Assembly: GCF_026283965.1 (NCBI RefSeq)
Contig: NZ_JAPDPD010000003.1
Location: forward strand, 186,001 to 250,000
Length of the DNA stretch: 64,000 bases
Direction: 5' to 3'
Origin: Dyella subtropica
GTDB lineage: Bacteria > Pseudomonadota > Gammaproteobacteria > Xanthomonadales > Rhodanobacteraceae
In this document: positions 2,010 to 54,321 of the stretch, piece after piece
Position numbering within the stretch: the first letter of the stretch is position 1
Layout: each line of letters starts with the position of its first letter
Program-made: the position numbers and the translations under genes
The notes under the pieces: generated by a model
What the model was told of the DNA's origin: nothing
The model's database searches: none
What the model saw: only the letters and a program-made list of their open reading frames with translations

Positions 2010-5000
2010 TCAGGCCGTCTGTCCCGTCGCCTTCAGGGCCCGCTTCGCCGCACGCCGCGCCTTGCGCGCAGCCTTGCGCTCCTTGCGGTCGTAGATGCGC
2101 AGATAGATCGCAGGCGTACTGAGCAGGGTCAGCAATTGCGACACCAAAAGCCCGCCGAGGATGGCCACGCCCAACGGCTGGCGCATTTCCGAGCCCGCGC
2201 CGAAGCCGATCGCCAGCGGCAGCGCCGCGCCCATCGCCACCAGCGTGGTCATGGTGATCGGACGGAAGCGCACCAGTGCCGCCTCGCGGATCGCTTCTGG
2301 CGGCGAGAGTCCGCGCTCGCGTTCGGCGACCAGGGCGAAGTCCACCATCAGGATCGCATTCTTCTTCACGATGCCGATCAGCATCAGGATCGCGATCACC
2401 GACATCAGCGTCAGCTGGGTGTGCGTCACCAGCATGGCCAGAAACGCGCCCATGCCCGCGGCCGGCAAGGTGGAAAGAATGGTCAGCGGATGGACCAGGC
2501 TTTCGTAGAGGACGCCCAGCACGATGTACATCGCCAGGATCACGGCGACGAACACAAAGATGCCGTTGGTGAGCGCCTCGATCAGTTGCTGGTTGTTGCC
2601 GCTGTACTCTTTCTGCACACCTGCTGGCAGATCGGCGGCGGCGATGGCCTGATCGACGAGCCGCAAGCCCTCGGCCTGCGATACGCCTTCCGCCAGGTTG
2701 TAGTTGATGGTGGTGGATTCCAGCTGGTTGAAATGCTTGATGGTCACCGGGGTGATGTTCCGCTCGATCTTCGCCACCGCGGACAAGGGGATCATCTTGC
2801 CCTGGCCGTTGCGCACGTAAATGTTGAGCAGGGCTTCCGGACTGATCGTCTCCGCGCCGGCCGCGGTCAGCACCACCCAGTACTGGTTGATATCCGAATA
2901 GATCAGCGAGACCGGTCGCTGGCCGAAGGCGTTGTACAGCGCCTCATCCACCTGGGCCACGTTCAGGTGCAGGCGGCCGGCTGCCTCGCGGTTCACCTTG
3001 AGCATCTGCTGTTTGCCGATGCTGTCGAAGCTGGTGGTGACGTCGCGGAACGCCTTCATGCCGCGCATGATGCGCGAGAGCTTCAGCGCAGGCGCCTGCA
3101 GGTCGGTGCTGGTGGTGCTGATGAGCTGGAACTGGTACTGGCCGCCGCCGCTGCCATCGCCGCCATTGTCGAGGAACTGGATGGGCGTGAGCGTCACCAC
3201 CAGGTCGGGGATCGCCTTGTACTGCTTGTCCAGCCGCTCGATCACCGTCTTGACCGGGTCCCGGCGTTCGCCCGGCCCGTTGCCCAGCGGCTTGAGGTCC
3301 ACGAACAGCGTGGTGCTGTTGCCTACCGCGCCGTTGGTGTTGTTGTTGCCGAGGATATTGGTGACGTCCTGCACCGCGGGGTCGGCCAGCATGATCTCGC
3401 CGATCTTCTGCGCGCGTTCGGCCAGCAGGATCGGCGAGATATTGGCGTCGGCGGTGACGTTGGCCTGCAGCATGCTGATGTCTTCCTGCGGCATCACCCC
3501 GCCGCCGGCAGTCTTCACCACCGCGAAGGCGAGTACACCGGTGAGTATCAGCAGGATCAGCGGCTGCCAGCGCATCAGACTGCGGTGGTGCATGGCCCAG
3601 TCCAGTCCGCGTTCGTAGATATGGTGCAGGCCGTGGTCGAAACGCTCCAGCGCCAGCGACAGCCGCGAAGGCGGCTTGCCCTCGGCGTGCGCAAGCGTCA
3701 GGTAGCGGCCGCATAGCGCTGGTGTGAGGGTGAGCGAGACCACGGCCGAGATCACCACGGCGGCGGTCAAGGTCACCGAGAACTCGCGCATCAATACGGT
3801 GAACATGTTGTTGCCGAACAGCATCGGCGCGAACACCGCGACCAGTGACAAGGTGATCGAGATCACCGTGAAGCCGATTTCGCGCACGCCGACCAGCGAC
3901 GCCGGCAAGGCGGCCTCGCCGTGCTCCATATGGCGCACGATGTTCTCGATCACCACGATGGCGTCGTCCACCACGAAGCCGATGCACAGCACCAGGGCCA
4001 CCAGCGACAGCGTGTTCAGGGTATAGCCGAGCGACCACATCAGCGTGAAGGCGCCGGCCAGCGACAACGGCACGCTGAGCATGGCGATCAGGGTGGGGCC
4101 GATGCGGCGCAGGAAGACCAGCATCACCACCGCCACCATCACGATGCTGAGCAGCAGGGCCAGCTGCACTTCATGCAGGGCCGACTTGGTGGTCTGGGTC
4201 AGATCGAAGATCGGGGTGATCTGCACGTCTGCCGGCACCAGTCGCTGGAACTCGGGCAGCTTCGCGCGGATGGCATCCGCGGTGGCCACGGCATTCGCAT
4301 CGGCGCGCTTGCTGATCTGCATCGCCACGGTGCGGTTGCCGTTGAACCAGGCGGCCTGGTACTGATCCTGCTCGCCGCCGCTGATGGTGGCCACGTCGGA
4401 CAGCCGCACCGGCGTGCCGTTCTTGACCGAGATCAGCAAGCGGCCGAATTCCTCCGGCGTCTGCAGCCCGTCGGTGGCGGTAACCGTCATCAGCGTGTGG
4501 CCGTCGCCGATAGTGCCCTGCGGCGAGGTGACGTTGGCCGCGATCAGGGCGTTGCTCACGTCGTCGGCGGTAAGTTGCTTGGCGGCCAGCGCGAACGGAA
4601 TCAGTTCCACCCGCACCGCGTGCGGCGTGCCGCCGAATACCTGCACCTGGGCCACGCCGGGGATCTGCGCCACCGTCGGCCGGATCAAGTTGTCGGTAAG
4701 GTCGTACAGCTTGTCGGGCGGCAGACTGGTGGAGGTCAGCGAGACCAGCAGCACCGGGATCTGCGAGGTATCGAACTTGAAGTACTGCGGCGGGTTGGGC
4801 ATGCCGCTCGGCAGGTCGGGCGCGGCCGCGTTGATCGCCGCCTGCACGTCGCGCGCGGCCTTGTCGGCGCTACGCCCAAAGTCGAACAGGATCTGGATCT
4901 GCGTGCCGCCGTCGTTGGTCAGCGACGTCATCTGCCGAATGCCGGGGATACGGCCGAAATGCCGTTCCAGCGGCGCCACCACCGTGCTGGCCATGGTTTG

Positions 5001-5168
5001 CGCGTTTGCGCCCGGCATCTGCGAGAACACCACCACGCCGGGAAACTCGATGGTCGGCAGCGCAGCCACGCCCAGCAGCAGATAGGCCCAGAAACCGGCC
5101 AGCACCAGACCCAGCGCGAGCAGCGAAGTGCCGATGGGGCGTCGGATAAGGGGTGCGAAGAGATTCAC
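2010..5168 (-). CDS. RND efflux permease, HAE1 / MdtB-MdtC-like (paralogue 1 of 3)
   Basis: A 1052-residue inner-membrane proton/drug antiporter of the resistance-nodulation-division class. It opens with the FAPLIRRPIGTSLL amphipathic segment and first membrane helix, then two large periplasmic loops and 12 expected helices. The proton-relay residues are present: Asp401-Asp402 in GFVVDDAIVV on TM4 and Lys935/Lys936 in VKKNAILMVDF on TM10. The AANVTSPQG and GTPVRLSDVA motifs place it with MdtB/MdtC-type pumps. Translation starts at GTG 5168, the same position as in the two paralogues. No membrane-fusion or TolC-like gene is adjacent, so its partners must be encoded elsewhere. The C-terminal tail is basic and Ala-rich. 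Confidence 0.95.
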   Translation of the reverse strand: MNLFAPLIRRPIGTSLLALGLVLAGFWAYLLLGVAALPTIEFPGVVVFSQMPGANAQTMASTVVAPLERHFGRIPGIRQMTSLTNDGGTQIQILFDFGRSADKAARDVQAAINAAAPDLPSGMPNPPQYFKFDTSQIPVLLVSLTSTSLPPDKLYDLTDNLIRPTVAQIPGVAQVQVFGGTPHAVRVELIPFALAAKQLTADDVSNALIAANVTSPQGTIGDGHTLMTVTATDGLQTPEEFGRLLISVKNGTPVRLSDVATISGGEQDQYQAAWFNGNRTVAMQISKRADANAVATADAIRAKLPEFQRLVPADVQITPIFDLTQTTKSALHEVQLALLLSIVMVAVVMLVFLRRIGPTLIAMLSVPLSLAGAFTLMWSLGYTLNTLSLVALVLCIGFVVDDAIVVIENIVRHMEHGEAALPASLVGVREIGFTVISITLSLVAVFAPMLFGNNMFTVLMREFSVTLTAAVVISAVVSLTLTPALCGRYLTLAHAEGKPPSRLSLALERFDHGLHHIYERGLDWAMHHRSLMRWQPLILLILTGVLAFAVVKTAGGGVMPQEDISMLQANVTADANISPILLAERAQKIGEIMLADPAVQDVTNILGNNNTNGAVGNSTTLFVDLKPLGNGPGERRDPVKTVIERLDKQYKAIPDLVVTLTPIQFLDNGGDGSGGGQYQFQLISTTSTDLQAPALKLSRIMRGMKAFRDVTTSFDSIGKQQMLKVNREAAGRLHLNVAQVDEALYNAFGQRPVSLIYSDINQYWVVLTAAGAETISPEALLNIYVRNGQGKMIPLSAVAKIERNITPVTIKHFNQLESTTINYNLAEGVSQAEGLRLVDQAIAAADLPAGVQKEYSGNNQQLIEALTNGIFVFVAVILAMYIVLGVLYESLVHPLTILSTLPAAGMGAFLAMLVTHTQLTLMSVIAILMLIGIVKKNAILMVDFALVAERERGLSPPEAIREAALVRFRPITMTTLVAMGAALPLAIGFGAGSEMRQPLGVAILGGLLVSQLLTLLSTPAIYLRIYDRKERKAARKARRAAKRALKATGQTA

Positions 5169-5207
5169 GGCATGTCCCAGCCAGGCCGGTGTCGCGGTCT
5201 ACAGCCG

Positions 5208-5253
5208 ACTATATGCGCCTGGAGCCCCGCGTCGCGAATGTGCCTGAAGTCCG
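5208..5253 (-). promoter_or_regulatory. Conserved upstream box of RND paralogue 1
   Basis: Read on the minus strand, CGGACTTCAGGCACAT (5253-5238) is followed 22 bp later by GCATATAG. The same two blocks occur upstream of the other two RND genes. The TATAG block could be a -10 hexamer, with the GGCACAT block as an upstream regulator site. This is inferred from conservation only. Confidence 0.45.
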
Positions 5254-5353
5254 CACCCTGTCAAAGGGCACGGGTACACACATTCCCTTCCTTGCGACCG
5301 TGGGAAGTCACTTTTTTGGGACAAGCTGGGGGTGGTTCCAGGAGCGCGTGTTG

Positions 5354-8300
5354 TCAGGCCGCCTGCTCGGCTGCCTTCAACGCCCGCTTCGCCGCACGCC
5401 GCGCCTGCCGTGCCGCCTTGCGTGCCTTGCGATCGAAGTTCCACAGATAGATCGCTGGTGTGCTGAGCAAGGTCAGCAGCTGCGACACCAGCAGGCCACC
5501 CACGATCGCCACGCCCAGCGGCTGGCGCATTTCCGAGCCCACGCCGAAGCCGATCGCCAGCGGCAGCGCCGCGCCCATCGCTACCAGCGTGGTCATGGTG
5601 ATCGGACGGAAGCGCACCAGCGCCGCCTCGCGAATCGCCTCTGGCGGTGACAGGCCGCGTTCGCGCTGCGCCACCAAGGCGAAGTCCACCATCAGGATCG
5701 CGTTCTTCTTCACGATGCCGATCAGCATCAGGATCGCGATGATCGCCATCAGCGTGACCTGGGTCTGCGTCACCAGCATCGCCAGGAAGGCGCCCATGCC
5801 GGCGGCCGGCAGCGTGGAAAGAATGGTCAATGGATGGCCGAGGCTTTCGTAAAGAATGCCCAGCACGATGTACATCGCCAGGATCGAGGCCAGCAGCAAC
5901 ACCATGCCGTTCGACTTGGCCTGTTGCAGGCGCTGGTTGTCGCCGGTGAATTCGACTTTCACACCAGCCGGCAGACCCACGGCGATGGCGGCCTGCTCGA
6001 CCAGCGCGACGCCGCGGTCCTGCTGCACGTTCTCGGCCAGGTTGTAGCGGATGGTGGAGGCTTCCAGCTGGTTGTGGTGGCGGATGCGCGTGGGGCTGAT
6101 ATTAGGTTGGATACGCGCCACGGCAGACAGCGGAATCATCAAGCCCTGACTGTTGCGCACGCGTACGTTGAGCAGCGACTCCGGGCTCAGCGATTGCGCG
6201 GCGGCTGAGGTCAGCACCACCCAGTACTGGTTGATGTCGGAATAGATCACCGACACCTGGCGCTGGCCGAAGGAGTTGAACAGCGCGGTGTCGATCGTGC
6301 CCATGCCCACGTGCAGGCGGCCGGCGGCTTCGCGGTCCACCTTCAGCAACTGTTGCTTGCCAGTGAGATCGAAGTTGCTGGTGACGTCGCGCAAATCCTT
6401 CAGCGTGCGCATGTAACGCACCATCTTCAGCGTCCACGGCTGCAGATCCTGGCCACCGGTGCCGATCAGCTGGAACTCGTACTTGCCGCCGCCATCGCCG
6501 CTGCCGCCGCCGCCGAGGAACTGCACCAGGCTCAGCGATACCTTTACGTCGGGCAGCGGGTCGTACTGTTTGCTGAGGCGCTCCATCACCTTCTTGGCGC
6601 TGTCGTGGCGATCGTTGGGGCCGTCGCCTAGCGGCTTGAGGTCGACGAACATGCTGCCCGCGTTGCCCACGGCGCCATTGCCGTCGTTGGAACCGAGCGT
6701 GGTCAGTACATCGAGCACGGCCGGATCGGCCTCCATGATCTCGGCGGCGCGCTTGGCGCGCGTCGCCATCATGGTGGGCGAGATATTGGCATCCGCGCGA
6801 ATATCGCCCTGGATCATGCCGATGTCTTCCTCTGGCATGAAGTTGCCGCCTGCGGTCTTCGCCACGGCAAATGCGAGCACGCCCGTCAGGATCAACAGGA
6901 TCAAGGGCTGCCAGCGCATGATCCGGCGATGGCGCATGGCCCAATCCAGCGCGCGCTCATAGGCACGATGCAGGCCGCGGTCGAAGCGCTCCAGTGCGCG
7001 CTCCATCCGGCCCGGCGTGCGGGTGCCTGGCTCGTCGTGGGTGAGGAAGTAACCGCATAGAGCCGGCGTGAGAGTCAGCGACACCAGCGCCGAGATCACT
7101 ACCGCCACCGCCAGCGTCACTGAAAATTCGCGCAGCAACATGACCAGCATGTTGTTGCCGAACAGCAGCGGCGCGAACACCGCCACCAGCGACAAGGTGA
7201 TCGATACCACCGTGAAACCGATCTCGCGCACGCCGACCAGCGCCGCCTGCAACGGCGGCTCACCGTGCTCCATATGACGCACGATGTTCTCGATCACCAC
7301 GATGGCGTCGTCCACCACAAAGCCGATGCACAACACCAGCGCGACCAGCGACAACGTGTTGAGCGTATAGCCGAGGAAGTACATCACCACGAAGGCACCG
7401 GCTAGCGACAGCGGCACGCTGAGCGTGGCGATCAAGGTGGGTCGCAGCCGGCGCAAGAACACCAGCATCACCAACACCACCATCACGATGCTGATCAGCA
7501 GCGCCACCTGCACTTCGTGCAAGGCGGACTTGGTGGTCTGGGTAAGGTCGAAGATGGGCGTGATCACCACGTCCGCCGGCATCCATTGGCGGAACTCCGG
7601 CAGGCGCTTGCGGATTTCTTCCACCGTGGCGACGGCATTCGCCTCGGCACGCTTGCTGATCTGCATCGCCACCGTGGTTTTGCCGTTGAACCAGGCCGCC
7701 TGATAGATATCCTGCTGCCCGCTGGTGACCCGAGCCACATCGGACAAGCGCACCGGCGTGCCGTTCTTCACCGAGATCAGCAGCTTGGCGAAATCCTCTG
7801 GCGTGTGCAGCGAGTCGGTCGCCGTGACCGTGGTCTGCGTGTGACCATCGCTCAGCGTGCCCTGCGGCGAGGTGACGTTGGCCGCGCGCAGCGCATTGCT
7901 CACGTCGTCCGCGCTCAGCTTTTTGGCGGCCAGTGCATTGGTATCCAGCTCGATGCGCACTGCATGCGGCGTGCCGCCAAACACCTGCACCTGCGCCACG
8001 CCGGGCACCTGCGCCACCGCCGGTTTGAGCAGGGTGTCGGTGAGGTCGTACAGCTTGTCCGGCGGCAGGCTGGTCGAGGTCAGCGATACCAGCAGGATGG
8101 GAATTTGCGAGGTATCGAACTTGAAGTACTGCGGCAGCGACGGCATGCCCGAGGGCAGATCCACCGCGGCAGCATTGATGGCCGCCTGCACATCGCGCGC
8201 GGCCTTATCCGCGCTGCGCCCGAAGTTGAAGCGAACCTGCACCGTGGCCGAGCCCTCGGTGGCGTTGCCGTACATTTCCTCCACGCCAGGGATGCGGCCC

Positions 8301-8512
8301 AGGTGGCGCTCCAGCGGCGCCAGCACCGTGGTCGCCATCGTCTGCGCGCTGGCGCCCGGCATCGAGGACACCACGAACACACCTGGGAATTCCAGCGACG
8401 GCAGGGCGGCCACGCCCAGCAGGCGATAGGCGAACAGGCCGGCCAGAATCAGGCCCAGCGCGAGCAGTGAGGTGCCGACAGGGCGGCGGATCAGAGGCGC
8501 GAAGATGTTCAC
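5354..8512 (-). CDS. RND efflux permease, HAE1 / MdtB-MdtC-like (paralogue 2 of 3)
   Basis: A 1052-residue RND permease, equal in length to and closely resembling its neighbours. The proton-relay pair Asp401-Asp402 lies in GFVVDDAIVV, and the TM10 VKKNAILMVDF block is intact. The Gly-rich insertion GGGGSGDGGGKYEFQL, in the second periplasmic loop, differs from the equivalent stretch in each paralogue. It starts at GTG 8512 with GGAAA a few bases upstream, and ends in the basic tail QARRAAKRALKA. The 185-bp gap to the next gene carries its own conserved box, so a single polycistronic message is not certain. It would form homo- or heterotrimers; MdtBC-type pumps are heterotrimeric, so these paralogues may co-assemble (inference). 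Confidence 0.95.
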   Translation of the reverse strand: MNIFAPLIRRPVGTSLLALGLILAGLFAYRLLGVAALPSLEFPGVFVVSSMPGASAQTMATTVLAPLERHLGRIPGVEEMYGNATEGSATVQVRFNFGRSADKAARDVQAAINAAAVDLPSGMPSLPQYFKFDTSQIPILLVSLTSTSLPPDKLYDLTDTLLKPAVAQVPGVAQVQVFGGTPHAVRIELDTNALAAKKLSADDVSNALRAANVTSPQGTLSDGHTQTTVTATDSLHTPEDFAKLLISVKNGTPVRLSDVARVTSGQQDIYQAAWFNGKTTVAMQISKRAEANAVATVEEIRKRLPEFRQWMPADVVITPIFDLTQTTKSALHEVQVALLISIVMVVLVMLVFLRRLRPTLIATLSVPLSLAGAFVVMYFLGYTLNTLSLVALVLCIGFVVDDAIVVIENIVRHMEHGEPPLQAALVGVREIGFTVVSITLSLVAVFAPLLFGNNMLVMLLREFSVTLAVAVVISALVSLTLTPALCGYFLTHDEPGTRTPGRMERALERFDRGLHRAYERALDWAMRHRRIMRWQPLILLILTGVLAFAVAKTAGGNFMPEEDIGMIQGDIRADANISPTMMATRAKRAAEIMEADPAVLDVLTTLGSNDGNGAVGNAGSMFVDLKPLGDGPNDRHDSAKKVMERLSKQYDPLPDVKVSLSLVQFLGGGGSGDGGGKYEFQLIGTGGQDLQPWTLKMVRYMRTLKDLRDVTSNFDLTGKQQLLKVDREAAGRLHVGMGTIDTALFNSFGQRQVSVIYSDINQYWVVLTSAAAQSLSPESLLNVRVRNSQGLMIPLSAVARIQPNISPTRIRHHNQLEASTIRYNLAENVQQDRGVALVEQAAIAVGLPAGVKVEFTGDNQRLQQAKSNGMVLLLASILAMYIVLGILYESLGHPLTILSTLPAAGMGAFLAMLVTQTQVTLMAIIAILMLIGIVKKNAILMVDFALVAQRERGLSPPEAIREAALVRFRPITMTTLVAMGAALPLAIGFGVGSEMRQPLGVAIVGGLLVSQLLTLLSTPAIYLWNFDRKARKAARQARRAAKRALKAAEQAA

Positions 8513-8626
8513 TAGGTTTCCGTACCGGGCTGTCTTTGTGCAGGCCGCGCCATACCGTCATGGCGCGGCAGCGGAGGGAGGGGCGCGCCAATGCGCGCGA
8601 TACCGGAGGCGTGCGCAATCATATCG

Positions 8627-8672
8627 GCTATATGCGCACCTCGACGTGACAGATGGATGTGCCTTAAGTCGG
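8627..8672 (-). promoter_or_regulatory. Conserved upstream box of RND paralogue 2
   Basis: On the minus strand CCGACTTAAGGCACAT (8672-8657) is followed after 22 bp by GCATATAG, exactly the spacing seen at paralogue 1. The box lies about 117-160 bp upstream of the GTG start. The gap also holds a GTGCC-GAAA-GGCAC hairpin near 8677-8691. Confidence 0.45.
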
Positions 8673-8778
8673 GGCCGTGCCGAAAGGCACGGGGTTAACG
8701 GTGTCGCAAATGTTCACCCCCTCCCGGCCTCGCTCGCGACCGAAGGAAGTCCCTGTGGGACACGCAGGGGGCTAAGAG

Positions 8779-11700
8779 CTAGGCCGCTTGCGCGGCCGCT
8801 TTCAACGCCCGTTTCGCCGCGCGTCGTGCTTGACGAGCAGCCTTACGCTGCTGATGGTCGTAGTTCCACAAATAAATTGCCGGTGTGCTGAGCAAGGTCA
8901 GCAACTGCGAGACCAACAGGCCACCGACGATAGCCACACCCAGCGGCTGTCGCGTCTCCGAACCGATACCGAAACCGATCGCCAGCGGCAACGCGGCGCC
9001 GATCGCCACCAGGGTGGTCATGGTGATAGGACGGAAACGCACCAGCGCGGCCTCGCGAATAGCTTCCGGCGGCGACAGCCCGTGTTCGCGCTGCGCCACC
9101 AGGGCGAAGTCCACCATCAGGATCGCGTTCTTCTTCACGATGCCGATCAGCATCAGAATCGCGATCACGCCGATCAGCGACATCGGCGTCTGCGTCACCA
9201 GCATGGCCAGGAACGCGCCCATGCCCGCGGCCGGCAGGGTGGAAAGAATGGTCAGCGGCTGGCCGAGGCTCTCGTAGAGCATGCCCAGCACGATGTACAT
9301 CGCCAGGATCGAGCCGGTCAGCAACAACCAGGTGTTGTTCTTGCTTTCGTCCAGCTGCTGGTTCTCGCCGGTGTAACCGAGCTTTACGCCGGCCGGAAGC
9401 TGGGCTTGTTCGACGATTTCCTCGATCAGCTTCATACCCTTGTCGCGCGGGAAGTCCTGCGGCAGGTTGTAATAGATCTGCGAGGCTTCGAGCTGGTTGT
9501 AGTGATTGACCAGCGAAGGCGTCACATTCGGCTCGATATGCGCCAGCGCCGACAGCGGCACCATGCCGCCTTTGCCGTTGCGCACGTAGGTATTGAGCAG
9601 GGTCTCCGGGCTGAGCGAGTGCTCCGCGGCCGAGGTCAGCACCACCCAATACTGGTTGATGTCGGAGTAGATGATCGACACCTGGTTCTGGCCGAACGCG
9701 TTGTACAGCGCTGTGTCGACCATGCCCATGCTCACTTGCAGGCGGCCGGCGGCCTTGCGGTCCACCTTCAGCATCTGCTGCTTGTCGATGCTGTCGTAGT
9801 CGCTGCTGACGTCGCGGAACTCCTTGCGCGCGCGCATCATCTTGGTGACCTTGAACACCCATGGCTGCAGGTCGATGTTGTTGCTGCTGATCAGCTGGAA
9901 GCTCTCGCTGCCGGTGCCGCCGCCACCGCCGCCGTTGAAGAAGCTCATCGAGTTGAGCGATACCTGCAGTTCGGGCAGCACTTCGTATTGTTTGCGCAGG
10001 CGCTCGATCACCGCGTCGATGTGCTCGCTGCGCTGGCCTGGGCCGTTGCCGCGCGGTTTGACGTCGACGAACATCGTGGCCTGGTTGCCCACCGCGCCGC
10101 CCGCGTTGTCGCTGCCGAGGAAGGTGGTGACATCGAGTACGGCCGGGTCGGCCTTCATGATGGCGGCGGCACGCTGGGCGCGCTCGGCCATCAACGTGGG
10201 CGAGATATTGGCGTCGGCGCGGATGCTGCCGCGGATCATGCCAATGTCTTCCTTCGGCATGAAATTGAAACCCGCGGTCTTGATCACCGCCATGGCCAGC
10301 ATGATGGTCAGCACCAGCAGGATCAGCGGCTGCCAGCGCATCAGGCGCCGATGGTGCATCGCCCAGTCCAGTGCGCGCTCATAGGTGCGGTGCAGGCCGC
10401 GGTCGAAGCGCTCGATCGCGCGTTCCAGGCGGCTGGGTTTGCGCGCACCTGGCGCCTCGTGGATCAGCAGCCAGCCACACAGCGCGGGCGTCACCGTCAG
10501 CGAGATCACCGCCGAGATCACCACCGCCGCGGTCAAGGTCACCGAGAACTCGCGCATGATCAGCGTGAACTGGCTGTTGCCGAACAACAGCGGTACGAAC
10601 ACGGCCACCAGCGACAAGGTGATCGACACCACCGTGAAGCCGATCTCGCGCACGCCGACCAGCGCAGCCGGCAGTGCCTGTTCGCCATGTTCCATATGGC
10701 GCACGATGTTCTCGATCACCACGATGGCATCGTCAACCACGAAGCCGATGCACAGCACCAGGGCCACCAGCGAGAGTGTGTTCAAGGTGTAGCCGAGCGA
10801 CCACATCACGACAAAGGCGCCGGCCAGCGACAGCGGCACGCTGAGCATGGCGATCAGGGTCGGCCGCAACCGGCGCAGGAAGACCAGCATCACCACCGCC
10901 ACCATCAGGATGCTGAGCAGCAGCGCCACTTCCACTTCGTGCAGGGCCGACTTGGTGGTCAGGGTGAGATCGAAGATCGGCGTGATGGTCAGGTCCGCCG
11001 GCAGCCACGAGCGCATTTCCGGCAACTTGGCGCGCACCGCGTCGGCGGTCGCTACCGCATTAGCCTCCGGGCGCTTGCTGATGCGCAGGCTCACCGAACG
11101 TGAGCCGTTGAACCAGGCCGCTTGGTACTCGTCCTGCTGCCCGCTGGTGACCCGGGCCACGTCCGACAGCCGTACCGGCGTGCCGTTCCGCACCGCGATC
11201 AGCAGCGAGGCGAACTCTGCCGGCTCGTGCAAAGCGTCGTCGGCGGTGACGGTCAGCTGGGTCAAGCCATCGCTCAAGGTGCCTTGCGGCGAGGTGACAT
11301 TCGCGGCTCGCAGCGCGTTGCGCACGTCGTTGGCGGTGAGGCCCATCGCCGCCAGGGCGGCATTGTTCAACTCCACCCGCACCGCCTTGGGGCGGCCGCC
11401 CATCACGCGCACCTGCGCCACCCCGGGGATCTGCGACAGGGCGGGCTTGATCAGCGTGTCGGCGAGATCGAACAGCTTGTCCGGCGGCAGCGTTCGCGAG
11501 GTCATCGACATCAGCAGCACCGGCATCTGCGCGGTACTGAATTTGAAGTAACGCGGCGGGATGGTCATGCTCGACGGCAGGTCGGCCGCCGAGGCATTGA
11601 TCGCTGCTTGTACGTCGCGAGCCAGGCGGTCGGTAGACCTGCCCGGTTCGAACAGCAGGATGACCGAGGTCGAGCCGTCGTTGTTCTCTGAACTCATCTC

Positions 11701-11934
11701 CTTCACGCCGGGGATGCGGCCCAGATGGCGCTCCAGCGGGGCGGCGACGGTCGACGCCATGGTCTGCGCACTGGCGCCGGGCACCTCGGCGTAGATCGAC
11801 ATGCCTGGGAATTCCATCGACGGCAGCGCCGCGACGCCAAGCAACAGATAGGCCCAGAAGCCAGCCAGCGCGAGGCCCACCGCGAGCAGCGACGTGCCGA
11901 TCGGTCGGCGAATCAGTGGTGCAAAGATATTCAC
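8779..11934 (-). CDS. RND efflux permease, HAE1 / MdtB-MdtC-like (paralogue 3 of 3)
   Basis: The first gene of the three-gene minus-strand array and a full-length RND permease (1051 residues from GTG 11934). I prefer this GTG because both paralogues start at the equivalent codon before NIFAPLIRRP; an ATG at 11952 would add MWSGKR. Asp401-Asp402 in GFVVDDAIVV and the VKKNAILMVDF helix are conserved. The variable loop reads NGGGGGGTGSESFQL. Normally a periplasmic adaptor gene precedes such pumps, but upstream is only a structured repeat and then btuB. Substrates cannot be predicted. Confidence 0.95.
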   Translation of the reverse strand: MNIFAPLIRRPIGTSLLAVGLALAGFWAYLLLGVAALPSMEFPGMSIYAEVPGASAQTMASTVAAPLERHLGRIPGVKEMSSENNDGSTSVILLFEPGRSTDRLARDVQAAINASAADLPSSMTIPPRYFKFSTAQMPVLLMSMTSRTLPPDKLFDLADTLIKPALSQIPGVAQVRVMGGRPKAVRVELNNAALAAMGLTANDVRNALRAANVTSPQGTLSDGLTQLTVTADDALHEPAEFASLLIAVRNGTPVRLSDVARVTSGQQDEYQAAWFNGSRSVSLRISKRPEANAVATADAVRAKLPEMRSWLPADLTITPIFDLTLTTKSALHEVEVALLLSILMVAVVMLVFLRRLRPTLIAMLSVPLSLAGAFVVMWSLGYTLNTLSLVALVLCIGFVVDDAIVVIENIVRHMEHGEQALPAALVGVREIGFTVVSITLSLVAVFVPLLFGNSQFTLIMREFSVTLTAAVVISAVISLTVTPALCGWLLIHEAPGARKPSRLERAIERFDRGLHRTYERALDWAMHHRRLMRWQPLILLVLTIMLAMAVIKTAGFNFMPKEDIGMIRGSIRADANISPTLMAERAQRAAAIMKADPAVLDVTTFLGSDNAGGAVGNQATMFVDVKPRGNGPGQRSEHIDAVIERLRKQYEVLPELQVSLNSMSFFNGGGGGGTGSESFQLISSNNIDLQPWVFKVTKMMRARKEFRDVSSDYDSIDKQQMLKVDRKAAGRLQVSMGMVDTALYNAFGQNQVSIIYSDINQYWVVLTSAAEHSLSPETLLNTYVRNGKGGMVPLSALAHIEPNVTPSLVNHYNQLEASQIYYNLPQDFPRDKGMKLIEEIVEQAQLPAGVKLGYTGENQQLDESKNNTWLLLTGSILAMYIVLGMLYESLGQPLTILSTLPAAGMGAFLAMLVTQTPMSLIGVIAILMLIGIVKKNAILMVDFALVAQREHGLSPPEAIREAALVRFRPITMTTLVAIGAALPLAIGFGIGSETRQPLGVAIVGGLLVSQLLTLLSTPAIYLWNYDHQQRKAARQARRAAKRALKAAAQAA

Positions 11935-12009
11935 GCGTTTCCCGGACCACATGAGTCATGCGCCACCCGTCAGCGGGTGCCGTACGGGTTCATGGACGCG
12001 TCCGGGCTG

Positions 12010-12069: not shown

Positions 12070-12490
12070 TGCTCCCTCTCCCCCGTTTACAAGTTGTGGA
12101 CGGGAAGAGGGTTGGGGTGAGGGGCGGGTGCTCGCGATAACCTCCATTGTCGTCACCCCGGCGCAGGCAGGGGTCTAGAGGCGTATCGCTTCGATGTTCG
12201 CGTTGTCGCGACCTGGCTCGCCTGCCGCGGGCTTCCGTCCGCCTGCCGGCGGCCGGGTCACTTTCTCTTGTTTGGCCAAGAGAAAGTAACCAAAGAGAAG
12301 GCCACCCCTCTTCCGCGCTCTCCGGGCTTCGCCCTCCGAGTCCGTGAGGGCTGGCCGGGCTTTTCGACACGACGTCCCTGTCGTGTCGAAAAGGCATCGG
12401 CGTCCATGCCGATGCCCCCTTCGGGGCCTGATCGTCCATCCCTCACCGCTGCACAGGGGCCCCCAAGATCAAAAGCAAACCCTCGCTCAT
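12070..12490. repeat. Structured dispersed repeat, copy A (core 12188-12462)
   Basis: The left part is a REP-like palindrome (CCCTCTCCCCC ... GGGTTGGGGTGAGGGG). The core begins GCTTCGATGTTCGCGTT and ends CTGCACAGGGGCC. It contains three successive hairpins: H1 12261-12286 (CTTTCTCTTG / CAAGAGAAAG), H2 12360-12393 (14-bp stem CTTTTCGACACGAC) and H3 12393-12416 (GGCATCGGC / GCCGATGCC). Copies B and C are at 27.8 and 54.0 kb. All three have the same orientation, and each lies just beyond the 3' end of a minus-strand gene, here btuB. It accounts for almost all of the gap between the RND array and btuB. Confidence 0.85.
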
Positions 12491-12529: not shown

Positions 12530-14407
12530 TTAGCGCGCGGGGCTATAACGCAAGGTCAGATAACCCGTGCGGCCCAGCTGGTTATAGAAACGCACCGTCT
12601 CGTAGTGATGATCGAACACGTTAGCCACACGCGCCTGCAGGCTCCAGCCCGGCTGGAAGTTCCAGCTGGCGCGCAGATCCACCGTGCCGTAGCCGCCCAG
12701 ACGATGCAGGTTCGCCGCTTCGTCGTAGCGATAGCCTTCGCCGTTCACCGATCCGCCTACGCTGAAGGCGCCCAGGTCGCGGTCCAGATCCACGCGCGCG
12801 ATGCGCTCCGGACGGCGGGCCAGCAGGTTGCCTTGCTGAGGACCGGCGCCGCGGTCCTCCGGCTTCTGGAAGGTCAGATAGCCGCGCACATGCCAGCCAT
12901 CCACATCGGCGCCAAGCTGGCCTTCGATGCCGCGGATACGCGCCTTGCTGAGGTTGACCGGCACGAAGTTCGCGTCATAGCCGATCAGGTCGCTGATCTT
13001 CGTCTGGTACGCATTCACCGCCCAGTTCCACACGCCAGGGCGTGCGGACAAACCGATCTCCGCCGTGTGCGACTTCTCCGGACGCAGGTTCGGATTGGCC
13101 GTGGCGAAACCGAAGAACGGCGGGAAGTACAGGTCGTTGAAGGTCGGTGCGTGGAACGCGGTGCCGTACGACGCGGTGAGCTTCATGCCGTTGCCAAAGC
13201 CATAGCCGTATGCGGCCGCCCCGGTGTTGTGGTTGCCGAACTGCTGGTTGTGGTCGTGGCGGGCCGACAGCTGCAGCTCATGTGCGCCGAACTGACCCTG
13301 GTAAAGCGCGAACACGCCGGTGTTGTTGCGCGAGGTGCTCAGGTAACCGGTATCGCTGCGCAGATGTTCCTGCTGGTAGTCCACACCGGCGCTGAGCAGC
13401 TGACCCGGCGCAAACGTGACGTCGTTCTGCCAGGAAGCCTGGTTGCGGCGCGAATACAGATAACCCTCGCGCACCATGTTCGCACCCAGGTCGGCGCGGT
13501 TGAGGTAGTTGTCCGCGCGGTCCAGATTCTGGCCGGCGCTCAAGCTCATCTTCCAAGCTTCCAACACAGCGAAGCGCAGGTTGGTGCCGGCCACCTGCTG
13601 CGAGCGGCGCGTGTAGTTCTGGAAGTCGCCGTCGTACTTGATGTCGCCCTTGCTCTTGAGCAGGCTGGCGCTCAGTTCGGTGCCGTTGTCCCAGTGGTAG
13701 CCGCCGCTCAAGGCGCCGTTATAGGTGCGGTAGCCGTCCAGATCGGGCTCGTTGGTGAAGCAGCCGCCCACACCGGCCGCTTCTGCGCGGCAGGCATTGA
13801 TGCCGCGTGTGTACTGGCCACCGACGCTGGCGTTGTACCAGGCATGCTGGGTGCCGCCGGAAAGACCGAACTGGCCATCGACCAGGCGATGGCTGCCAGC
13901 GGTCACGCTCATCGACGGCGTCAGGCTCTCGTTGGCCTGACCGTGGCGCGTGAAGATCTGGATCACGCCGCCGATCGCGTCGGAGCCGTAAAGGCTGGAG
14001 CGCGGCCCGCGCACGATTTCGATGTGATCGATCTGCTCCACCGGCAACTGCTCGAAGGCCGGAATGCCGGCACCAACGGTACCGATGCGCACGCCGTCCA
14101 CCAGCACTAGCGTGTGCGAGGAATTGGTGCCGCGCATGAACAACGACGTCTGCTGGCCGATACCGCCGGCAACACCGAACGCCACGCCCGGCAGGCCGGT
14201 CAACAGATCCTGCACCGACTGCGGCTGCAGTCGCACGATGTCGTCATGCGTGATCAGGGTGACTGGCGCCAGCGTTTCATCCAGCGGCATCGCCGAGCGC
14301 GTGGCGGTCACCACCACCGGGGCGAGCTGTTCGGTACCGTTCTGGTCGGCGGCATGCGCCACGGCCATGCAGGACAGCAGCGCCGTCGCCAGCAAAGTCT
14401 TCTTCAT
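12530..14407 (-). CDS. btuB: TonB-dependent vitamin B12 receptor BtuB
   Basis: A 625-residue outer-membrane receptor that imports cobalamin using TonB-transduced energy. It has a signal peptide (MKKTLLATALLSCMAVAHA), a TonB-box-like stretch PVVVTATR at about residue 30, and a plug with the BtuB-like segments LPGVAFGVAGGIGQQTSLFMRGT, VLVDGVRIGT and IEIVRGPRSSLYGSDAIGGVIQIFT. The rest is a 22-strand barrel ending in YLTLRYSPAR. Length matches BtuB (about 615 residues). The assignment is reinforced by a cobalamin riboswitch in its leader. No BtuCDF or cobalamin-salvage genes are in view. Confidence 0.93.
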   Translation of the reverse strand: MKKTLLATALLSCMAVAHAADQNGTEQLAPVVVTATRSAMPLDETLAPVTLITHDDIVRLQPQSVQDLLTGLPGVAFGVAGGIGQQTSLFMRGTNSSHTLVLVDGVRIGTVGAGIPAFEQLPVEQIDHIEIVRGPRSSLYGSDAIGGVIQIFTRHGQANESLTPSMSVTAGSHRLVDGQFGLSGGTQHAWYNASVGGQYTRGINACRAEAAGVGGCFTNEPDLDGYRTYNGALSGGYHWDNGTELSASLLKSKGDIKYDGDFQNYTRRSQQVAGTNLRFAVLEAWKMSLSAGQNLDRADNYLNRADLGANMVREGYLYSRRNQASWQNDVTFAPGQLLSAGVDYQQEHLRSDTGYLSTSRNNTGVFALYQGQFGAHELQLSARHDHNQQFGNHNTGAAAYGYGFGNGMKLTASYGTAFHAPTFNDLYFPPFFGFATANPNLRPEKSHTAEIGLSARPGVWNWAVNAYQTKISDLIGYDANFVPVNLSKARIRGIEGQLGADVDGWHVRGYLTFQKPEDRGAGPQQGNLLARRPERIARVDLDRDLGAFSVGGSVNGEGYRYDEAANLHRLGGYGTVDLRASWNFQPGWSLQARVANVFDHHYETVRFYNQLGRTGYLTLRYSPAR

Positions 14408-27673: not shown

Positions 27674-28113
27674 CGCCTGCTCCCTCTCCCCCGTTCACCG
27701 ATTTGTGCACGGGGGAGAGGGTTGGGGTGAGGGGTGGGTGCTCGCGACACCGTTTCTATCTCGTCATTCCGGTGTAGGCCGGAGGCGCTTTACAACAGCG
27801 AAGCTGGTCATCCAGTGGCATTGACGCTTCGATGTTCGCGTTATCGCGACCAGGCTCGCCTGCCGCGGGCTTTCGAACCGCTGCCGCGGTCCGAGTCACT
27901 TTTCTCTGTTTGGCCAGAGAAAAGTAACCAAAAGAGAGGCCACCCCGGTTACGCGCCCTCCGGCTTCGCCTGCGGGTTCGTGAGGGCTGGCCGGGCTTTT
28001 CGACACGACGTCCCTGCCGTGTCGAAAAGGCGCAGGCATCCATGCCTGCGCCCCCTTCGGGGCCTGATCGTCCAGCCCTCACCGCTGCACAGGGGACCCT
28101 GAAGGTCAAAAGC
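27672..28113. repeat. Structured dispersed repeat, copy B (core 27826-28099)
   Basis: Same architecture as copy A. A REP-like palindrome at the left (27675-27738) is followed by the core with H1 27899-27924 (CTTTTCTCTG / CAGAGAAAAG), H2 28000-28027 (12-bp stem CTTTTCGACACG) and H3 28029-28052 (GGCGCAGGC / GCCTGCGCC). H1 and H3 have different bases from copy A but remain fully paired. It fills the gap between convergent eda and the PhzF-like gene and runs straight into a 13-bp tandem array. Confidence 0.85.
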
Positions 28114-28243
28114 AAAAGCCAAGAGCAAAAGCCAAGAGCAAAAGCCAAGAGCAAAAGCCAAGAGCAAAAGCCAAGAGCAAAAGCCAAGAGCAAAAGCCAA
28201 GAGCAAAAGCCAAGAGCAAAAGCCAAGAGCAAAAACCAAGAGC
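28114..28243. repeat. Tandem array, 10 copies of a 13-bp unit
   Basis: AAAAGCCAAGAGC is repeated ten times without interruption from 28114 to 28243. Nine copies are identical and the last has one change (AAAAACCAAGAGC). It sits between the right end of structured repeat B and the stop codon of the PhzF-like gene. Perfect copies imply recent slippage expansion, so the length should vary between strains. Confidence 0.95.
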
Positions 28244-28250
28244 AGCGCTC

Positions 28251-34733: not shown

Positions 34734-34737
<4 letters not shown>
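34636..34737. repeat. REP-like palindrome (GTAGGAG family) overlapping the lhr stop codon
   Basis: The right arm (34715-34737) is identical to the right arm of the edd-eda element. The left arm is diverged (GTAGGAGCCCACCCC) and contains its own CCCCGGA / TCCGGGG stem. The lhr TAG stop at 34736-34734 is formed by the CTAC end of the palindrome. Confidence 0.8.
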
Positions 34738-39239
<4,502 letters not shown>

Positions 39240-53856: not shown

Positions 53857-54321
53857 CCTCTCCCCATACGGGGAGAGGGTTGGGGTGAGGGGCGAGTGCT
53901 CGCATGAGCATGGCTCTTTGCCTTCGCCTCCTCTCCCCTCCGGGGAGAGGATTGAGGTAGGGGGTGCTCGCGATAACCTCTCACTGTCGTCACCCCGGCG
54001 AAGGCCGGGGTCCAGTGGCGTTGCCGCTTCGATGTTCGCGTTATCGCGACCTGGTTCGCCTGCCGCGGGCTTTCGAACCGCTGCCGCGGTCCGAGTCACT
54101 TTTCTCTGTTTGGCCAGAGAAAAGTAACCAAAAGAGAGGCCACCCCGGTTCCGCGCCCTCCGGCTTCGCCTGCGGGTCCGTGAGGGCTGGCCGGGCCTGC
54201 TCTTAGATGGCATGGGGACACGACGTCCCTGTCGTGTCGAAAAGGCATCGACGTCCTGTCGATGCCCCCTTCGGGGCCTGATCGTCCACCCCTCACCGCT
54301 GCACAGGGGCCCGGAGATCAA
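53857..54321. repeat. Structured dispersed repeat, copy C (core 54026-54312)
   Basis: Two REP-like palindromes (53859-53890 and 53932-53975) lead into a core with H1 54099-54124 (CTTTTCTCTG / CAGAGAAAAG) and H3 54245-54267 (GGCATCGAC / GTCGATGCC). H2 is damaged: the TTTTC of its left arm is replaced by about 20 unrelated bases (54198-54219), leaving only the ACACGAC / GTCGTGT inner stem. Like copies A and B it lies just beyond the 3' end of a minus-strand gene. Confidence 0.85.

Follow-up and report, generated by a model that had tools for sequence, protein, structure and literature searches.

Dispersed repeats of Dyella subtropica joining a TwoAYGGAY-type core to a predicted triple-helix pseudoknot, with candidate CsrA/RsmA-binding loops

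The Csr/Rsm small RNAs RsmX/Y/Z and CsrB are single genes, and in the triple-helix pseudoknots of telomerase RNA and of the SAM-II riboswitch the purine strand of stem 2 is accompanied, in parallel, by the pyrimidines of loop 1. The RNA motif TwoAYGGAY (Rfam RF01731) was listed in 2010, with no function given in the available passages of that report (Weinberg et al. 2010, PMC2864571), and the binding of CsrA to it has been proposed from motif matches in the accessible part of a later paper (PMC4333381). According to the accessible text of PMC4005645, the high-affinity Csr/Rsm site is an ANGGAX loop carried directly on a stem; its example has a C-G closing pair, and binding is weaker without the N. 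The nearest Xanthomonas precedent is RsmU, presented in the available passages of PMC7694677 as a 3'-UTR derived, RsmA-binding RNA, restricted to Xanthomonas and with no homologue in Rfam 13. After the change of its four predicted GGA motifs, RsmA still bound in a smaller complex and the effects of RsmU overexpression persisted (PMC7694677), so that GGA counts alone are no proof of function.

The window analysed here, a stretch of 64,000 nucleotides from contig NZ_JAPDPD010000003.1 of Dyella subtropica (positions 186,001 to 250,000), contains three same-strand copies of a repeat, A (12188-12462), B (27826-28099) and C (54026-54312), all with the putative RNA on the minus strand. The alignment confirmed the copies at the positions originally predicted, with a mean column identity of 86%, flanks included; all three copies were also recognised by a covariance model, and B and C by DNA search as well. 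The stem sequences reported for hairpins H3 and H1 proved correct in the three copies: the H3 arms are GGCATCGGC/GCCGATGCC in A, GGCGCAGGC.../...GCCTGCGCC in B and GGCATCGAC/GTCGATGCC in C, and the H1 arms are CTTTCTCTTG/CAAGAGAAAG in A and CTTTTCTCTG/CAGAGAAAAG in B and C. Comparison of the copies shows a dispersed repeat whose minus strand would specify a two-domain RNA of about 230-250 nt. Its 5' domain is the TwoAYGGAY fold, a long helix P1 closing two C-A(N)GGA(N)-G hairpins; its predicted 3' domain is an H-type pseudoknot in which each base of the pyrimidine loop 1 matches its counterpart in the purine strand of the long stem, and a CTCG..CGAAA hairpin comes next. The fold of copy B exceeded that of shuffled sequences on the plus strand (z -6.05) and on the minus strand over a slightly shifted interval (z -7.81), none of 200 shuffles equalling it in either case. 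A protein-coding reading of the copies was rejected: Pfam was empty for the seven overlapping ORFs (E <= 0.01), and the copies differ by indels and varying stems.

A covariance model of the element core, R1, was derived from 38 copies of the host genome and its relatives. It scored 139.1 bits on the core of copy A (12337-12463; P1 closing H4, H3 and H2), 141.3 bits on that of copy B (27973-28099) and 87.9 bits on that of copy C (54173-54313), in which the base of H2 is replaced by an insertion near 54199-54215. Alignment A4, fitted to the structure, collects 121 hits aligned to R1 (114 distinct) from the window and from 99 of 223 loci. In the 114 distinct copies, 98.0% of the 4166 paired cells pair and 29 of the 37 pairs display double changes, the covariation score being 0.432 versus 0.111 after shuffling and at most 0.056 with slid partners. 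The structure-independent MAFFT alignment A3 contains double changes in 18 of 37 pairs, and one pair is changed in 23 of its 38 sequences with none broken. The originally proposed selection on a folded structure was thus borne out in a larger alignment, and the comparative evidence strongly indicates that the structure and the family membership are real.

The identity of the core was analysed with Rfam. At gathering threshold, the sole match of the window is a cobalamin riboswitch (RF00174, 14538-14766, minus strand, 104.4 bits), located upstream of a TonB-dependent receptor gene (12530-14407); copy A lies just 3' of the same gene. In a permissive scan, the minus strand of copy A was assigned to RF01731 (12324-12467, 37.9 bits for a cut-off of 43) and copy C was unlisted; copy B scored 36.9 bits, also under the cut-off. 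In the host genome (G000) 8 of 31 matches reached at least 43 bits, as did 1 of 12 in G004 and 0 of 6 in G003, the best sibling scoring 47.6 bits; RF01731 had no match in G001, G002 and G005 (G001-G005 being relatives of the same genus) nor in 14 control genomes. When 20 loci were scanned with RF01731, three matched at E <= 0.001, all over the cut-off. Among 15 distant loci found with R1, four matched at E <= 0.01 and 11 gave no match; three of the four, L243, L246 and L248, reached the cut-off with 60.7-62.4 bits and are called TwoAYGGAY. Because sibling and distant copies pass the RF01731 cut-off, we assign the 3' half of the element, in its minus-strand reading, to TwoAYGGAY, although the window copies stay under the curated score. 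The original prediction, which had recognised no named RNA family, must be corrected here. It had also held that a known Rfam family explaining the element would speak against it; this applies by half, because RF01731 covers about half of the element without explaining the whole. In a separate locus, L010, a minus-strand segment (3058-3173) resembles the Xanthomonadaceae sRNA sX13 at 40.2 bits for a cut-off of 50.

The distribution of non-Watson-Crick cells was used to orient the structure. On the RNA strand, G.U cells outnumber A.C cells by 46 to 13 in A4, a count that omits the constant G-U pair of columns 63-90 and in which cells are not independent, and by 47 to 16 in alignment A5, where 31 of the 47 G.U cells belong to the inner helix and a column artefact may have produced them. 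By helix, the G.U:A.C ratio in A4 is 32:3 in P1 and 11:0 in H3, and the opposite in H2 (3:5) and in the inner helix (0:5). A folded RNA on the minus strand is the most likely reading and agrees with this overall G.U excess.

On that strand, H3 and H2 are both capped by a C-A(N)GGA(N)-G loop in 115 of the 121 copies, the six others lacking one strict loop. In copy A the loops are C-ATGGAC-G on H3 (12393-12416) and C-AGGGAC-G on H2 (12360-12393), both CsrA-type sites; in copy B they are C-ATGGAT-G (28029-28052) and C-AGGGAC-G (27996-28029). The loop A, GG and A are conserved at 97-100% and the closing C-G at 99-100%, the N positions being free. The most variable stem columns are conserved at 46-55%, and other stem columns, such as those of the H2 base, are conserved. 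The strict AYGGAY form occurs in only part of the 121 copies. Outside the family, A(N)GGA is found in both loops of 26 of 27 distant hits, 23 of them in the strict form. A subfamily is marked by the insertion CTGCTCTTAGATGRCATGGG, which replaces the base of H2 and leaves the upper stem and the GGA loop intact; it was read in copy C (54199-54215) and in L019, L033 and L040, and 13 of the 75 host matches have the corresponding length. The loops satisfy the definition of a CsrA/RsmA site, A(N)GGAX directly on a stem with a C-G closing pair. Given this loop conservation, the site definition (PMC4005645), the earlier proposal for TwoAYGGAY (PMC4333381) and the single csrA match in the host genome, CsrA/RsmA is the leading candidate ligand, its docking being likely from the loops.

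The second domain was originally described as hairpin H1. The paired arms were upheld, but the simple-hairpin view was not: beyond the arms lie, in this order, a mirror purine tract and a stretch complementary to the loop of H1, so that an H-type pseudoknot with a third strand covarying with the stem, forming a triple helix, is predicted instead. In copy A (12261-12304, minus strand) the stem is 12261-12270/12277-12286, the third strand 12292-12299, and the knot pairs 12273-12277 with 12300-12304 by inspection. The corresponding positions in copy B (27899-27942) are 27899-27908/27915-27924 and 27930-27937, with 27911-27915 facing 27938-27942, again by inspection; in copy C the module was placed at 54099-54142 from the tract pattern and inspection. 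The terminal hairpin of copy B (27873-27894), which reads CTCG..CGAAA on the RNA strand, has the stem ACCGC/GCGGT, and sibling copies carry the variants CCGCC/GGCGG, CCTCC/GGAGG and CTCGC/GCGAG, noted by eye and uncounted.

The pseudoknot was assessed on 141 modules, 86 of them unique; as only modules with a perfect stem of 8 bp or more were admitted, the shuffles address the third strand and the knot. In the unique modules, 7.80 of 8 third-strand positions match the stem of the same module, versus 6.76 when third strands are dealt among modules (0 of 500 shuffles as good), and in 70 of the 86 the match extends to all 8. The knot pairing averages 4.72 bp versus 3.27 bp shuffled (0 of 500) and covaries: TGGCC/GGCCA, TGCCC/GGGCA, TGCTC/GAGCA, TGTCC/GGACA and TGGTC/GACCA were all read. 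A stem was recovered in 113 of 120 core hits with enough flank (one of 121 dropped for its short flank, seven without a stem by script), and 112 also had a matching third strand. The distant hits likewise carry the module on the 3' side of the core; their knot pairings are different, among them CGGCC/GGCCG, GCACG/CGTGC and GCAT/ATGC, and average 4.10 bp versus 3.05 bp shuffled (0 of 1000). The module was present in 24 of 27 distant hits, two of them spurious- or weak-looking (L252:1187-1307 and L242:1501-1593), with at least five of six third-strand matches in 22, and in the loci of 10 of 11 further families, the exception being the family of G336. Rfam, at the thresholds used in the permissive scan and the locus scans, returned no family for the pseudoknot part. 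On the RNA strand, the third strand corresponds to a pyrimidine loop 1 that runs in the same direction as the purine strand of stem 2.

Template switching in replication can keep hairpin arms matched by quasi-palindrome correction. Covariation could therefore arise without selection if this process, together with gene conversion, had homogenised the copies, a rival explanation that would fit the almost purely Watson-Crick stems of H2 and H3, with their few G.U cells. The third strand and the knot pairing, however, are not simple palindromes and would not readily be maintained in this way, the loops are conserved above the stems, and the arms of P1 stand about 90 nt apart. Such a process is already disfavoured and we consider it very improbable as the source of the covariation.

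Read on its other strand, H1 is laid out like the purine-motif DNA triplexes described in the accessible text of Holder et al. 2015 (PMC4666352), and by inspection the modules fit the ITxF limits (pyrimidine, purine and mirror purine tracts, stems of 6-15 and loops of 1-6 nt). In most of the 41 host copies inspected, a TM-type G/C triplex motif and a CGTCACCCCGGCG hairpin stand ahead of the element on the forward strand. The G/C-rich intrastrand triplex motif to the left of copy A (12072-12124, plus strand) was missed by the script pattern and found by inspection from the consensus given in the accessible part of PMC4666352; those of copies B (27682-27734, with a first loop above the published 3-6 nt) and C (53858-53892) were returned by the pattern script, both on the plus strand. 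The TCACCCCGGCG..GGGGT hairpin module lies to the left of the copies, at 12153-12174 for A, 27764-27785 for B, where it is degenerate, and 53990-54011 for C, all on the plus strand. Another TM-type motif (35224-35259) lies inside a minus-strand gene called at 34734-39173. Around it the alignments to G002 and G003 are broken (about 200 window bases facing 41 and 58) and G004 aligns straight through, as if a repeat had entered the coding region.

The DNA search of the host genome gave at least 40 near-full matches and one 35-base fragment (40 of 134 candidates scored), copy A not among them. The covariance-model search proposed in the original prediction was carried out with R1 and returned 75 host matches at E <= 0.01, including A, B and C (150 of 4273 first-look candidates scored; the lowest, at 33 bits, is weak), and matches in 44 of 200 genomes of the order under strict filters. 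Among the matches listed, host copies are 84-100% identical to copy B and those of G001-G003 74-83%; also among those listed, some 20 matches in G004 cover only about positions 1-112, that is, the knot part without the core. A pattern scan of named genomes found at least 106 stretches, the 80 listed being all from Dyella. By DNA, the element or a part of it occurs in 6 of 6 genomes of the genus and in 97 of 147 genomes of the family Rhodanobacteraceae (21 of 26 genera). With R1 and the same strict filters, 16 of 274 genomes of the class were positive, 14 of them outside the order and spanning 11 families, and of 299 genomes drawn from the phylum four had the core, all within the order. The core thus occurs in 11 further gammaproteobacterial families, the knot accompanying it in 10. 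The DNA search of plasmid and phage collections, in distant mode, gave no matching record.

Orthologous sites were compared among congeners. At site A the element is present in G000 and G004, and G001-G003 carry another sequence, which includes a different inverted repeat (a degenerate one in G003). At site B, G000 and G001 carry the element, G004 has its 5' part alone, and G002 and G003 lack it. For site C, no ortholog of the stretch aligned in the regions of the relatives compared. The two sites compared differ in occupancy between congeners, and the empty sites are not clean: they differ or hold other repeats, which bears on the search for a target site duplication. A different large inverted repeat, GGTTGGGGTGAGCC..GGCTCACCCCAACC, fills the orthologous site A in G001-G003 and site B in G002; with this other repeat in the same gaps, the gaps 3' of genes look like a niche shared by several repeat families. 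Near copy A, three consecutive minus-strand genes of about 1050 codons (2010-11952) have about 74-80% DNA identity to each other's orthologues in the relatives, and the array apparently counts two genes in G001 and G002 versus three in the host.

The 75 host matches, the lineage-specific copy sets and the polymorphism of sites A and B among five genomes would be expected of a non-autonomous mobile DNA element of the MITE or REP type, whose hairpins would serve as transposase ends or recognition sites on single-stranded DNA and whose transcription would be irrelevant. No terminal inverted repeats, i.e. no arms at both ends of A, B or C, were found, however, and the host has no Y1/RAYT transposase (PF01797: 0 matches in G000, 5 of 14 controls matching); a REP/RAYT origin in the host was rejected on this last result, which concerns G000 only. 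The excess of G.U, not of A.C, on one strand and the conservation of CsrA-type loops across families also argue against a DNA-only role, and we regard this explanation as rather unlikely.

The position of the copies relative to genes was determined from gene calls made with a home-made codon score, not from annotation. In the host, 17 of 41 copies lie between convergent genes, 20 between codirectional genes (10:10 for the two orientations), one between divergent genes and three at contig ends; none is within a called gene. The loci of the pattern scan gave 35 convergent, 27 codirectional (11 sense, 16 antisense) and 7 divergent positions for 69 classified copies, again with none within a called gene; this set relies on one exact pattern in 106 loci, 32 of 101 distinct copies being dropped at locus edges. 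The 148 background gaps of at least 150 bp without the pattern comprised 15 convergent, 77 codirectional and 56 divergent gaps, some of which may contain copies lacking that exact pattern. The guess of a 3'-UTR module made in the original prediction therefore stands for the position, mostly 3' of genes, but the sense-strand orientation bias that it would entail is absent. Orientation being unbiased, the GGA strand is read by no upstream gene in 11 of the 38 classified host copies and in 23 of the 69 from the pattern scan. This is the main result that counts against a simple sense-strand 3'-UTR role, and a strand-biased role, for which neither 10:10 nor 11:16 would be expected, was rejected. 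No sigma-70-like promoter was found in or beside copies A, B and C, and the copies have differing flanks at the RNA 5' end.

In other genera, 18 of 56 loci (L112 and L118 being probably one locus) have a second, inverted copy within 450 bp, and in all 18 the RNA 5' ends face each other. Of the 18 loci in the class-level set, six have such a 5'-facing pair and two the opposite arrangement. None of 44 host sources has an inverted pair and no two of the 75 host matches form one within 450 bp; the 75 include one same-strand pair, 831 bp apart. A short tandem array, AGAGCAAAAGCCA, adjoins copy B (28103-28245), and similar low-complexity spacers separate some of the inverted pairs of other genera.

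The same context could be that of a 3'-end or bidirectional terminator module, with hairpins that would stop or protect the transcripts of neighbouring, often convergent genes and with incidental GGA loops. The position 3' of genes, the convergent enrichment and the inverted pairs of other genera are in line with this, as are the four U that follow H3 on the RNA strand by inspection. Terminator-like hits around copies A, B and C number 3, 1 and 0 for shuffle means of 0.3, 1.4 and 0.5, so that only copy A exceeds its shuffles, and none of the hits is H2, H3 or H4; one lies between the upstream gene and copy B, at a frequency no higher than in shuffles. By eye, the element-less G002 and G003 have an ordinary terminator hairpin at site B and G000 has none, but G001 has both the element and a terminator there. 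Since termination would also leave the near-invariant A(N)GGA loops and the covarying pseudoknot unexplained, we find this alternative improbable.

The explanation that we prefer, and to which we give about an even chance, is that of a dispersed 3'-UTR module docking or titrating RsmA. Transcription would occur mostly by read-through from the upstream gene, the twin loops would bind the two RNA sites of one RsmA/CsrA dimer, and the triple-helix knot would protect the 3' side of the RNA. Each copy would so act as an RsmA docking or titration site in a 3' UTR, and titration or recruitment of RsmA via 3' UTRs is our best guess for the physiological role. In other genera, inverted pairs may offer one sense copy for either direction of transcription, and the element may have spread by some copying route combined with selection for positions 3' of genes. 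More tentatively, and as a proposal that we hold to be somewhat doubtful, TwoAYGGAY would be one half of a gammaproteobacterial two-domain RNA, in which a telomerase-like triple-helix pseudoknot is attached to a twin domain for CsrA docking, and genomes would have multiplied this RNA to tens of copies behind genes; the 3' UTRs would then constitute a sponge for RsmA, or a network recruiting it, that is both distributed and lineage-tuned, with inverted pairs assuring one sense copy for either direction of transcription.

The core family TwoAYGGAY and the suggestion of CsrA binding are already known. As far as our searches of open PMC papers reached, the pseudoknot domain, the two-domain RNA, the copy number, the 3' position in the group and the inverted pairing are new, and the available passages of the TwoAYGGAY literature in those papers do not mention a pseudoknot, a repeat status or inverted pairing. 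The larger alignment points to a strand, adds a triplex-pseudoknot domain that passes shuffle controls, and reveals loops strongly of the CsrA type in a family that numbers about 75 members in a single genome, so that an RNA family with no assigned function becomes directly testable. If transcribed, the repeats could buffer or localise a global regulator via 3' UTRs, an unusual route for a repeat family. To our knowledge, natural triple-helix pseudoknots are few, and a covarying bacterial family with many variants would therefore be a useful structural resource.

Compared with REP/BIME sequences and their RAYT transposases, the element is likewise short, structured, intergenic and present in high copy number, but it is longer and multi-domain, and its host lacks a Y1 transposase. 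It shares several GGA motifs per RNA with the Csr/Rsm sRNAs (RsmX/Y/Z, CsrB) and RsmU, which are single genes whereas the element is a dispersed repeat, and the binding of RsmA has been shown for RsmU whereas that of the element is predicted from sequence. The pseudoknots of telomerase RNA and the SAM-II riboswitch have the same topology, and U.A-U and C+.G-C triples would be possible in the element; no sequence relation is claimed, the element being a bacterial dispersed repeat whose triplex is deduced from covariation only. With the ITxF/TM motifs of Holder et al. 2015 (PMC4666352, in its accessible text), H1 shares the succession of pyrimidine, purine and mirror purine tracts joined by short linkers, and G/C motifs of the TM type adjoin the element copies. 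The third strand of the element, however, sits inside a covarying pseudoknot beside a structured RNA, and the available main text of that paper names neither Xanthomonas nor Stenotrophomonas and describes no knot in the two sections consulted. The likeness to TwoAYGGAY lies in P1 and the two adjacent GGA-loop hairpins on the same strand. The Rfam match stops at the core whereas the element continues into the predicted triplex pseudoknot and the terminal hairpin; TwoAYGGAY has strict AYGGAY loops whereas those of the element are A(N)GGA(N), mostly AGGGAC, AGGA or AGGAT in H2; and the element is a high-copy repeat of 3' intergenic regions, at times arranged as an inverted pair in other genera.
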